In this document: positions 43,454 to 49,415 of the stretch, piece by piece | Position numbering within the stretch: the first letter of the stretch is position 1 | Layout of the letters: each line of letters begins with the position of its first letter | Source: Methanohalophilus levihalophilus | GTDB taxonomy: Archaea; Halobacteriota; Methanosarcinia; Methanosarcinales; Methanosarcinaceae | Length of the DNA: 64,000 nt | Direction: 5' to 3' | NCBI RefSeq assembly: GCF_017874375.1 | Contig: NZ_JAGGLK010000002.1 | Coordinates: forward strand, 372,001-436,000 | Notes under the pieces: model-generated | Seen by the model: only the letters and a program-made list of their open reading frames with translations | Databases searched by the model: none | What the model was told of the DNA's origin: nothing | Translations under genes and position numbers: made by a program

Positions 43454-44260
43454 TCATTCTTTCTTGTCAAAGCTGCCTGTACGGTAGCCTTCCAGATCAA
43501 GGGTTATGTAAGACACATCCAGTTTGCGGAGTTCTGGCATAATCCTGTCCATTTTTGAAACAAGATCCGGAATGTCGTTTTTGGGTATTTCAATGCGTGC
43601 AATTTTTCCCTCGTTATGCAGGCGCATTCTGCATTGCCGGAATCCCTCTCTATAAAGAATGATTTCGCCGGCTTCAATGATGGAAAGCTTATCTAGATCG
43701 AGTTTTTCATTATATGGAATCCTTGATGCGAGGCATGCCGAAGAAGGAACGTTCCAGAATTCCAGATCCATTTCCTTTGCAATCCGGCGTACATCTTCCT
43801 TGTTGATACCGGCTTCAACAAAGGGGTGTAAAATTCCTTCTTCTTCGGTGGCCTTATTACCGGGTCTATACTCTCCAAGATCAGAGAGGTTTGTGCCGTC
43901 AACAATGGTTTTAATTCCCTTGCTTTCAGCAATCTGCTTCAATGTGTGACAGATCTTCTTTTTGCAGTGATAACACCTGTCTTCAGGGTTATTTCCGATT
44001 TCCGGGATCTGGAAAGGATCAAAGTTTACCACTTTCAGGTTTATGCTGAACCTGTTTGCAAGTTCATGGGCACGCTCAACATCCCTGCGTGGCACAAGGG
44101 GCGAATCAATTAACACACAGAGAAGCTTGTCACCAAGGATTTCCTTGGAAATAACAGATAGCAGTGAACTATCCGTGCCGCCGGAATAGGCTATGAGCAT
44201 CGAATCCTGTGCAGCAATGAAAGCCTTGAGGTCATTGAGTTTATCTTCAGGCAAACTCAT
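43454..44260 (-). CDS. larE: LarE-like ATP-dependent sulfur transferase
   Basis: A 268-residue PP-loop protein: SGGTDSSLLSVI is the ATP pyrophosphatase loop, and RCYHCKKKI, PSSACLASRIPYNE and FRQCRMRLHNE are typical of the LarE family. Lactobacillus LarE gives up a cysteine sulfur to make the nickel-pincer cofactor; archaeal family members may instead serve other thiolation reactions. No larB or larC is in view. It overlaps the upstream ThiF-like gene by four bases, which makes a sulfur-carrier link likely. Confidence 0.85.
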   Translation of the reverse strand: MSLPEDKLNDLKAFIAAQDSMLIAYSGGTDSSLLSVISKEILGDKLLCVLIDSPLVPRRDVERAHELANRFSINLKVVNFDPFQIPEIGNNPEDRCYHCKKKICHTLKQIAESKGIKTIVDGTNLSDLGEYRPGNKATEEEGILHPFVEAGINKEDVRRIAKEMDLEFWNVPSSACLASRIPYNEKLDLDKLSIIEAGEIILYREGFRQCRMRLHNEGKIARIEIPKNDIPDLVSKMDRIMPELRKLDVSYITLDLEGYRTGSFDKKE

Positions 44261-44991
44261 TTTTCGTCACAACTCCCGCAGATTTCACAGGAGGGATTGC
44301 GACATACTTTGAGCTCTTCGGTAGTACCGTTTTTTCCGTCCCAAACAACCAGTCTGCCTGTATACAGGTTATCTTCGCCAAGCAGGTACTTGATTGCTTC
44401 GTTTGCCTGCATAGTTCCCACAACTCCGGCACTGGCTCCGATTATAGGGAAGAGTTCCTTGGGAGGTTTTCTTTTGAAAAGGCACTCAAGACATGGTGTT
44501 TTTCCGGGAACGATTGTTGTCATTTGTCCATGGAAACCATGGACAGCACCATGAATAAGGGCAATCTTGTTCCTGACGGCAACCCTGTTGAGCAAAAATC
44601 GTGCTTCATAGTTGTCCAGTGCATCTATTATGATATCTGCGTCACTGAGCAGTTCCTCTGCATTATCTTCGGTGATCTTTGTCGCAATTGTCTCGACGGT
44701 TATGTAGGGATTTATTTTTTCGAGTTTTTCCCCGGCAGAGCGGACTTTGTCCTTCTCGATATCAGTATGCCAGTGAAGGATTTGACGGTTCAGGTTACTT
44801 ATTTCCACACTATCCATATCTATAACCCGGATGTTTCCGACACCTGCAACTGCAAGATATGTAACTATGGGGGAACCTAACCCTCCGCATCCTGCAATAA
44901 CCGCTTTTGAGCTTTTCAGGCGATTTTGCCCCTCTTCACCGATCATCATAATCTGGCGACTGTACAACTCCTTCTCTTCATCGGAAAGCAT
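44257..44991 (-). CDS. ThiF/MoeB/HesA family adenylyltransferase
   Basis: A 244-residue E1-like enzyme that adenylates the C-terminal Gly of ubiquitin-like sulfur carriers. The ATP-binding loop AGCGGLGSPIVTYLAVAGVG, RQILHWHTDI (Arg finger region), and two zinc-binding CxxC pairs (CLEC; CEICGSC at the end) are seen. ATG 44991 (MLSDEEKELYSRQI) follows AGAGG at ten bases; TTG 45012 is less likely. Coupled to larE. A perfect 18-base palindrome lies 64 bases upstream. Confidence 0.87.
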   Translation of the reverse strand: MLSDEEKELYSRQIMMIGEEGQNRLKSSKAVIAGCGGLGSPIVTYLAVAGVGNIRVIDMDSVEISNLNRQILHWHTDIEKDKVRSAGEKLEKINPYITVETIATKITEDNAEELLSDADIIIDALDNYEARFLLNRVAVRNKIALIHGAVHGFHGQMTTIVPGKTPCLECLFKRKPPKELFPIIGASAGVVGTMQANEAIKYLLGEDNLYTGRLVVWDGKNGTTEELKVCRNPSCEICGSCDEK

Positions 44992-45054: not shown

Positions 45055-45072
45055 TATTCACAATTGTGAATA
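45055..45072. promoter_or_regulatory. Palindromic operator, site 1 (thiF-larE promoter side)
   Basis: TATTCACAATTGTGAATA is a perfect 18-base palindrome. Its core TTCACAATTGTGAA recurs at 45579 and, with small changes, at 45133 and 45593. It lies upstream of the minus-strand thiF-larE genes. Confidence 0.65.
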
Positions 45073-45132
45073 GTAAGACATATTCCATGCTTTTAATGTT
45101 TTTGATGGGATTTCCAAATGAGCAAATTGTTA

Positions 45133-45146
45133 TTCACGATAGTGAA
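45133..45146. promoter_or_regulatory. Palindromic operator, site 2 (HTH gene promoter)
   Basis: TTCACGATAGTGAA matches the site-1 core except at two central positions. It lies 55 bases before the HTH regulator start (45202), where it would overlap or abut the core promoter and suggests autoregulation. Confidence 0.6.
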
Positions 45147-45201
45147 CTATTTATTCAGGGATGTTCATAGCCTAACAAAATGAAGTTTATCTGGAATCTC
45201 T

Positions 45202-45528
45202 ATGAAAGTAAAAACACCTTGTGAAGTAGTGGTTTGGGAAATCCTCCCTGCTATCCGTGCGGCACTCGCAGCTGAACTTGTGCAATCCGGAGTTTCGCAG
45301 CAGAATGTAGCAACTCTTTTTGGAATGGCTCCCTCAGCGGTTTCTCAGTACCTTACTAAAAAAAGAGGCTATAAAATTGAATTTGACGATGAAATCAAAG
45401 ATGCTATAGCCGAGCTTTCAGGCGAGATTAAGGAAGGAAAGGATGTTGACATTCCTTTAAGGTTTTGCCAGATTTGCAGACAACTTCGCTCTGAAGGCGA
45501 AAGATGTCCGGCAGATGGCGAAATTTGA
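45202..45528 (+). CDS. HTH transcriptional regulator with C-terminal cysteine motif
   Basis: A 108-residue protein. Residues 28-55 form a helix-turn-helix (GVSQQNVATLFGMAPSAVSQ), close to archaeal XRE/Fis-like regulators. The C-terminus has RFCQICRQLRSEGERCPADG, a possible metal or Fe-S site with CxxC and a third cysteine. The gene is flanked by palindromic sites in its own promoter, in that of thiF-larE and in that of metY-metX; I infer that it binds them and senses sulfur or methionine status. Direct evidence is lacking. Confidence 0.75.
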   Translation: MKVKTPCEVVVWEILPAIRAALAAELVQSGVSQQNVATLFGMAPSAVSQYLTKKRGYKIEFDDEIKDAIAELSGEIKEGKDVDIPLRFCQICRQLRSEGERCPADGEI

Positions 45529-45578
45529 AGCCTTTCTTTTTTACCTGTTACATAGTTTTTTTATACTATAAGCCTATA

Positions 45579-45606
45579 TTCACAATTGTGAATTCACAAT
45601 AGTGAA
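45579..45606. promoter_or_regulatory. Tandem palindromic operators, sites 3 and 4 (metYX upstream)
   Basis: TTCACAATTGTGAA (45579-45592) is directly followed by TTCACAATAGTGAA (45593-45606). Two abutting copies allow cooperative binding of a dimeric regulator. They lie 220 bases before metY, so a long leader or another promoter may intervene. Confidence 0.65.
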
Positions 45607-45797
45607 TTTCACTGGCAGGGTGGCGAGTATTCTACATCGGTTCACAGCAACGGATTGTTAATGCTCGATTCAGCCCCGCCTATTCAGGAAGATATGATCC
45701 AAACCTAACAGCAAAACCAGAGGTTACTTTCGGAATTGAACCGGAAGGAAAATCATTATCTTTCCTCAACTACAAAATAAATTGTAAAGACATATGA
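45606..45797 (+). pseudogene. Coding-like fragment without start codon
   Basis: One frame runs from a TGA at 45603 to TGA 45795-45797 and reads as plausible protein: GWRVFYIGSQQRIVNARFSP, then GRYDPNLTAKPEVTFGIEPE and a short hydrophobic end. No ATG, GTG or TTG is in frame at the head. It may be the relic of a gene cut off by the operator region, or a gene with an unusual start. Family unrecognised. Confidence 0.35.
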
Positions 45798-45824: not shown

Positions 45825-48577
<2,753 letters not shown>

Positions 48578-48632: not shown

Positions 48633-49415
48633 ATGCAGGAATATTTTGCAAAAGCGTCTGAAAAAGACATCACTCGCTCGATTGTTGAAGAATTTACTAC
48701 CGAATTCCTTTCCTATGTGGAATCTGATGTAATTATCGTGGGAGGAGGCCCCAGTGGCCTGACAGCAGCCCGCGATCTTGCCAGCAACGGAATAAGGACA
48801 GTTGTCCTTGAAAGCAACAACTACTTCGGTGGTGGATTCTGGTTGGGCGGTTACCTCATGAACAAGGCTACTGTACGTGCTCCGGGCCAGAAGTTTTTCG
48901 ATGAACTCGGTGTTCCATACAAGGAATATTCCGAAGGTCTTTATGTTGCAAGTGCACCATCCGCATGTTCCAAATTGATTTCCGCAGCATGTGATGCAGG
49001 TGCTTTCATGCTGAACATGAATAAATTTGATGATGTGGTTACAAGGAACGGAAGGGTTGCCGGTGTTGTAACTAACTGGACACCTGTTTCCGCATTGCCA
49101 CGTGCAATTACCTGTGTGGACCCTGTAGCACTTGAAACCAAATGTGTCATTGACGCTACCGGCCACGATGCAGTGGTTGCAAACACTCTCAGATCCAGAA
49201 ACATGCTCGAGCTTGAAGGCTTCGGACCAATGGATGTTCCAACCTCCGAAGACCTTGTTGTTGAGAAAACCTCTGAAGTTTTCCCGGGTCTCGTACTTAC
49301 AGGAATGGCAGTAGCAACCGCATACGGTCTTCCAAGAATGGGCCCAACCTTTGGTTCAATGCTTGAATCAGGCCGCAGGGCTGCAAAGATTGCTGAGGAA
49401 ATTGTTAAGGGATGA
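48633..49415 (+). CDS. thi4: Thiazole synthase (Thi4 family)
   Basis: A 260-residue FAD/NAD-binding fold protein. [18 protein letters not shown] is the dinucleotide site, and [30 protein letters not shown] and [18 protein letters not shown] are Thi4 hallmarks. It makes the thiazole moiety of thiamine from NAD and glycine. Residue 161 is Cys (ITCVDP), the place of the sulfur-donating Cys of yeast Thi4; sulfide-using archaeal enzymes such as that of Methanocaldococcus have His there. Some archaeal members are mislabelled ribose-1,5-bisphosphate isomerase. Confidence 0.9.

Follow-up and report, generated by a model that had tools for sequence, protein, structure and literature searches.

The window (the whole stretch of DNA analysed, 64,000 nucleotides of Methanohalophilus levihalophilus) carries a gene for a 108-aa helix-turn-helix (HTH) protein among genes of sulfur transfer and homocysteine synthesis, with palindromic operators between them. 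The features of this locus are as follows:

43454–44260, minus strand: larE-type ATP-dependent sacrificial sulfur transferase (TIGR00268, NCBIfam LarE, 285.7 bits, cut-off 150)
44257–44991, minus strand: thiF/moeB-like adenylyltransferase
45055–45072, no strand: operator O1, perfect 18-bp palindrome TATTCACAATTGTGAATA
45133–45146, no strand: operator O2, TTCACGATAGTGAA, 55 bp upstream of the HTH start, a candidate autoregulatory site
45202–45528, plus strand: putative HTH regulator, 108 aa
45558–45567, plus strand: putative TATA-like element, about 24 bp before the O3 centre, TATA score 7/8
45579–45592, no strand: operator O3, TTCACAATTGTGAA, first member of a tandem pair with a 14-bp period
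45593–45606, no strand: operator O4, TTCACAATAGTGAA, second member of the O3/O4 tandem
45614–45681, plus strand: apparent decayed tRNA-Cys, 7 bp behind O4, located by local alignment to the tRNA-Cys of locus L041
45825–47129, plus strand: metY, O-acetylhomoserine sulfhydrylase (TIGR01326, 666.6 bits, cut-off 495)
47126–48577, plus strand: metX, homoserine O-acetyltransferase with a C-terminal CBS pair
48633–49415, plus strand: thi4, sulfide-dependent thiazole synthase (TIGR00292, 237.3 bits, cut-off 148.3)

The thi4 gene is probably co-transcribed with the metYX operon; in Methanococcoides and in locus L153 it has operators of its own. With its CBS pair, MetX itself may act as a nucleotide- or SAM-type sensor.

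The pattern TTCACNNNNGTGAA is found exactly four times in the window (45057–45070, 45133–45146, 45579–45592 and 45593–45606, a span of 552 bp), while its chance expectation in 64 kb is 0.04 and four copies were never reached in 100 dinucleotide shuffles. All four sites match TTCAC-N-AT-N-GTGAA. The preliminary description had placed four sites with a common TTCAC-N4-GTGAA core in the promoters of thiF-larE, the HTH gene and metY-metX; the TTCACNATNGTGAA palindromes are indeed exact at all of these positions, and the flanking genes, identified by profile matches, agree with the assignment. O1 lies upstream of the HTH gene (plus strand) and 66 bp upstream of thiF (minus strand), and its counterpart in L041 is TTCACATATGTGAA. 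The position equivalent to O2 is also occupied by a site in Methanohalophilus and Methanococcoides loci, and tandems of the O3/O4 type recur in L041/L159, L045, L091, L140 and L141. Transcription starting from the TATA-like element would begin within O3/O4.

A genome-wide motif scan had been proposed as a check, and it does not reveal random scatter. In the window genome (G000, 2.116 Mb) TTCACNNNNGTGAA has 10 exact copies and its reversed control 3; for TCACAATTGTGA the counts are three and zero, two of the three copies lying in the window and the third on contig C4. When one mismatch was allowed using TCACNATNGTGA, the genome gave 63 matches against 58 for the control, the signal being confined to the exact sites. 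The suggestion of a local regulon proved too narrow: the outlying TCACAATTGTGA on C4 precedes a TusA-family gene (L052:5281-5517; Pfam TusA, 80 bits) by about 200 bp, and C4 also carries a TTCACATATGTGAA site that precedes a second small winged-HTH gene (L052:2557-2859) by about 100 bp. The arrangement in which the operator, often in tandem, precedes a small winged-HTH gene with a TusA-like neighbour is repeated in L140, L141, L142 and L151 and suggests a regulatory cascade. Several further matches were rejected as chance: lone genomic ones in L053, L054 and L056, next to genes without sulfur function; those in L057 and L062, located within reading frames; and those in L144 and L148, within a reading frame belonging to a cobalamin-type gene cluster.

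Across the genera of Methanosarcinaceae, TCACAATTGTGA recurs in front of HTH orthologs and of sulfur and cysteine genes, as the autoregulated sulfur regulon of the preliminary description predicts for orthologous loci that retain the regulator. In Methanohalophilus and Methanococcoides, the palindrome stands on both sides of the HTH ortholog, on the upstream side at a distance of 50–150 bp, and the flanking DNA otherwise aligns poorly; in the remaining genera examined the operator takes the form TCACAATTGTGA. The consensus of 78 non-redundant sites collected with TCACNATNGTGA is TTCACAATTGTGAA, with frequencies of 0.69 for the inner A and T and 0.76 for the outer T and A. Two groups depart from this picture. 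Methanosarcina-like genomes (this name, like “Methanolobus-like”, is our own assignment, made from gene content among other criteria) have only a degenerate site at the HTH start, for example TCTCAATTGTAA, with good sites at least about 200 bp away, at iscS. Methanotrichales-like genomes (f7) have related CAATTG-centred palindromes (TAACAATTGTGA and others) at HTH promoters only in part, and the regulon proposed below is confined to Methanosarcinaceae.

The genes adjacent to the sites are nearly all sulfur or cysteine genes. When the nearest genes were grouped by similarity, the clusters comprised the HTH gene itself (25 loci), cysteine desulfurase (iscS/nifS, 11), MetY (8), SepCysS (7), ThiF (6), Thi4 (5) and CysK (4), with CysRS, LarE, MetX, a ThiS-like protein and TusA found once each. 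Sites detected by the motif alone add, in Methanococcoides and relatives, TusA together with the small winged-HTH gene, and further Thi4, ThiM and SepCysS; one site stands between a PAPS-reductase/ATP-sulfurylase pair and HcyBio, the enzyme of sulfur incorporation into homocysteine. In genome G150 (5,751,492 bp), the three copies of TCACAATTGTGA are all clustered within 4.3 kb, in the region of metY, iscS2, the HTH gene and cysK. By our identification this gene order presumably is that of MA2715–MA2720 in M. acetivorans C2A, where MA2719, judged by its position, would be the ortholog of the HTH gene.

A further target is the gene for tRNA-Cys(GCA), the carrier on which SepRS and SepCysS build cysteine in these archaea. 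In at least four genera, most tRNA-Cys copies seen begin 5–50 bp behind a site; the gaps are 62 and 133 bp in the exceptions (L080, L044, L109), and copies in L077, L090 and L097 are without an exact site. The sites are usually tandem, with a spacing of 14 bp in Methanohalophilus and Methanococcoides and about 20 bp in Methanosarcina-like genomes, and a TATA-like element directly precedes the operator pair. This operator cannot control all tRNA-Cys in G109 (of the same genus as the window), because three further tRNA-Cys copies are present in that genome. Two local arrangements were also seen: in the Methanolobus-like loci L072, L074 and L152, tRNA-Arg(CCG) is divergent beside the operator-controlled tRNA-Cys, and in L077 four tRNA-Cys, two of them with exact operators, are interleaved within 5 kb with corrinoid-protein-like genes.

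In L041 the gene order is operator pair, about 7 bp, intact tRNA-Cys, SepCysS, metY and metX. The corresponding segment of the window (45614–45681) aligns with the L041 tRNA-Cys at a score of 21, the best of 5536 other window tiles reaching 17.5, and is not called as a tRNA by Rfam or ARAGORN; an Rfam scan of the intergenic region of the window also gave no tRNA, T-box or riboswitch. From the alignment and the failed tRNA calls, the metYX operon of the window appears to have lost tRNA-Cys and SepCysS with the operator retained. The relic folds better than its shuffles (z −3.4), having kept the acceptor-end stem and refolded its interior as a single long hairpin, which could be plain decay or a reused metYX leader RNA. 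SepCysS copies of G000 are found on C4 and C3. None of the 41 tRNA genes in its assembly is typed as tRNA-Cys(GCA), and since the assembly also lacks Trp tRNA and part of the Pro, Arg and Ser tRNAs, gaps or missed genes are likely. As to the proposed sulfur/methionine focus of the regulon, cysteine and tRNA-Cys prove to be as central as methionine.

The 108-aa protein was matched in 170 of the 238 genomes of the class, and its closest named homolog comes from a Methanohalophilus MAG (83% identity). Its AlphaFold model (mean pLDDT 86, about 90 or above across most of residues 11–80) predicts helices at 6–28, 33–40, 44–51, 63–77 and 84–99. Residues 10–54 align with the tri-helical HTH of DeoR, KorB, ParB and TrpR (Z 4.4–6.5), and with this predicted core the protein is probably an HTH DNA-binding regulator. 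Foldseek with the model gave no match at E < 0.2; an XRE/lambda-repressor relationship was represented only by structures at E near 1, with no match to Pfam HTH_3, and a PDB sequence search returned weak HTH matches only. The Pfam scan found neither ThiN nor Rrf2, its sole match being sub-threshold and unrelated. The C-terminal Cys cluster of the preliminary description is present: besides Cys7 near the N terminus the protein has Cys89, Cys92 and Cys102, and in 39 homologs Cys7, Cys89 and Cys92 are invariant and Cys102 nearly so. In the predicted structure the HTH core is followed by two helices, the last of which holds Cys89 and Cys92, and Cys102 sits in a disordered tail. In the tree, the window clade of the family (36 rows, support 100/99) is distinct from a sister clade that includes a second copy from G000 (119 aa). 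Sister-clade genes adjoin iscS in L105–L107, and in L105 and L107 they stand directly behind iscS and iscU, an IscR-like arrangement; paralogs with CxxC pairs occur in L105–L107 and at L134:1438-1797 (G000:C2:303003-303296).

Most likely, Methanosarcinaceae have a cysteine/sulfur regulon under a dedicated repressor, the autoregulated 108-aa HTH protein, which probably senses sulfur or Fe-S status by way of its four conserved cysteines; judging from sequence comparison, we assign this reading a probability of about three in four. We suppose that an HTH dimer would bind TTCACAATTGTGAA and that a tandem spaced by 14 or about 20 bp would be occupied by two dimers. Bound between TATA and start, or against TATA, they would keep the pre-initiation complex or RNA polymerase off. 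A signalled shortage of cysteine or sulfur, perhaps read via an Fe-S cluster on Cys7, Cys89, Cys92 and Cys102, would release the repressor, so that the enzymes of sulfur assimilation, homocysteine synthesis and cysteine formation and the cysteine desulfurase would be made, together with extra tRNA-Cys in most relatives. The breadth of the targets (tRNA-bound cysteine, OAS-derived cysteine, two homocysteine routes, the sulfur relay and thiazole sulfur) suggests that the signal is cysteine or sulfide status.

The same protein and operator could respond primarily to Fe-S cluster or redox status by an IscR-like logic, the cysteine and sulfur genes being the supply side. We consider this possible, if less probable. 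Four conserved cysteines provide the ligand set that an Fe-S or thiol sensor needs and make an Fe-S cluster or metal-thiol centre plausible, the sister clade lies behind iscS-iscU, and iscS is recurrent among the targets. However, the cluster is putative, comparable Cys sets bind Zn too, and the targets (tRNA-Cys, metY/metX, HcyBio, cysS, thiM) exceed Fe-S assembly.

As to the mode of action, the preliminary description had left both a repressor and an activator open. An activator bound next to TATA would recruit TBP/TFB and keep the regulon on while bound. In the window, the site belonging to the HTH gene precedes that gene's likely TATA box, a position compatible with repression or activation, and O2 is directly followed by a TATA-like stretch, in Methanococcoides too. 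Yet at the tRNA-Cys, SepCysS and f4 HTH promoters the palindromes come after TATA, over the probable start, which is the usual position for a repressor. Operators between TATA and the transcript start would block initiation, which speaks for the repressor half of that proposal and renders an activator unlikely.

It is somewhat more doubtful still that the protein is a MetJ-like methionine/SAM repressor with metYX as the core and the remainder incidental. MetJ-type regulators control methionine biosynthesis genes, and here also metY/metX are targeted in several genera and HcyBio in another; but several loci target tRNA-Cys, SepCysS, iscS or thi4 with no met gene nearby, and the present protein differs from MetJ in its HTH fold and its broader cysteine/tRNA-Cys regulon.

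The assignment of the operator to the HTH repressor is supported by their joint distribution among genomes of the window family (HTH orthologs called at E of at most 1e-20). The 79 genomes with an ortholog contain 223 exact sites against 22 for the reversed control, and the 33 without it contain 11 against 6. The association of at least one site with the ortholog has a Fisher p of 3e-12, which ignores kinship and therefore overstates independence. Four genomes without the ortholog have kept metY (66–69% identity) and show no operator in the 1.5 kb or so to each side of it; five more have lost metY as well. Operator and regulator are gained and lost together, except for G171 (7 sites with no ortholog found in a 75% complete genome) and G087 and G090 (one site each), and with the operator kept at the HTH promoter and at the targets across genera this strongly supports the autoregulated sulfur regulon. 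That an unlinked regulator serves the palindrome, the HTH gene being another target only, agrees with the upstream sites of the second small HTH gene (L052:2557-2859) in several genera, but is improbable because site counts track the presence or loss of the HTH ortholog and the promoter of this ortholog itself carries sites in most of the genera examined, of degenerate form in the Methanosarcina-like ones.

Among known systems, the bacterial Rrf2-family regulators CymR and IscR are likewise small proteins that control cysteine/sulfur or Fe-S supply genes through palindromic operators; the candidate described here is archaeal, uses a different HTH with no Rrf2 match, and has a tRNA gene in its regulon. 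ThiR, the archaeal thiamine regulator, is similarly a small-HTH regulator of a sulfur-linked biosynthesis and differs in combining its HTH with ThiN. The clade VII SepCysS is known to adjoin tRNA-Cys and sulfur metabolism genes (PMC5424206), the same association as found here; the main text of that paper does not contain “regulat” and describes no regulator or operator. The iscSU2 genes of M. acetivorans (MA2717/MA2718), which we take to be those of the G150 locus, matter when cysteine is the sulfur source (PMC7585200), and the main text does not discuss the adjacent HTH gene and operators. We found no published regulator or operator for the tRNA-Cys/SepCysS/sulfur-gene neighbourhood in the open-access literature, and an earlier description elsewhere is possible. 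It looks as if the neighbourhood is known and its candidate repressor and operator are new.

Methanogens need much sulfur, and a search of the open-access literature found no transcription factor for its assimilation in them. The analysis offers a candidate regulator with a defined operator and target list, testable in the genetically tractable Methanosarcina acetivorans. We see about an even chance that a sulfur- or Fe-S-sensing archaeal repressor draws tRNA-Cys into an amino-acid biosynthesis regulon because in these methanogens tRNA-Cys itself is the scaffold for making cysteine. If this is true, a dedicated repressor would here control a single tRNA gene, which is uncommon, and the tRNA-dependent cysteine route would be tied to sulfur supply, which raises the question of whether the tRNA-Cys level limits cysteine synthesis.
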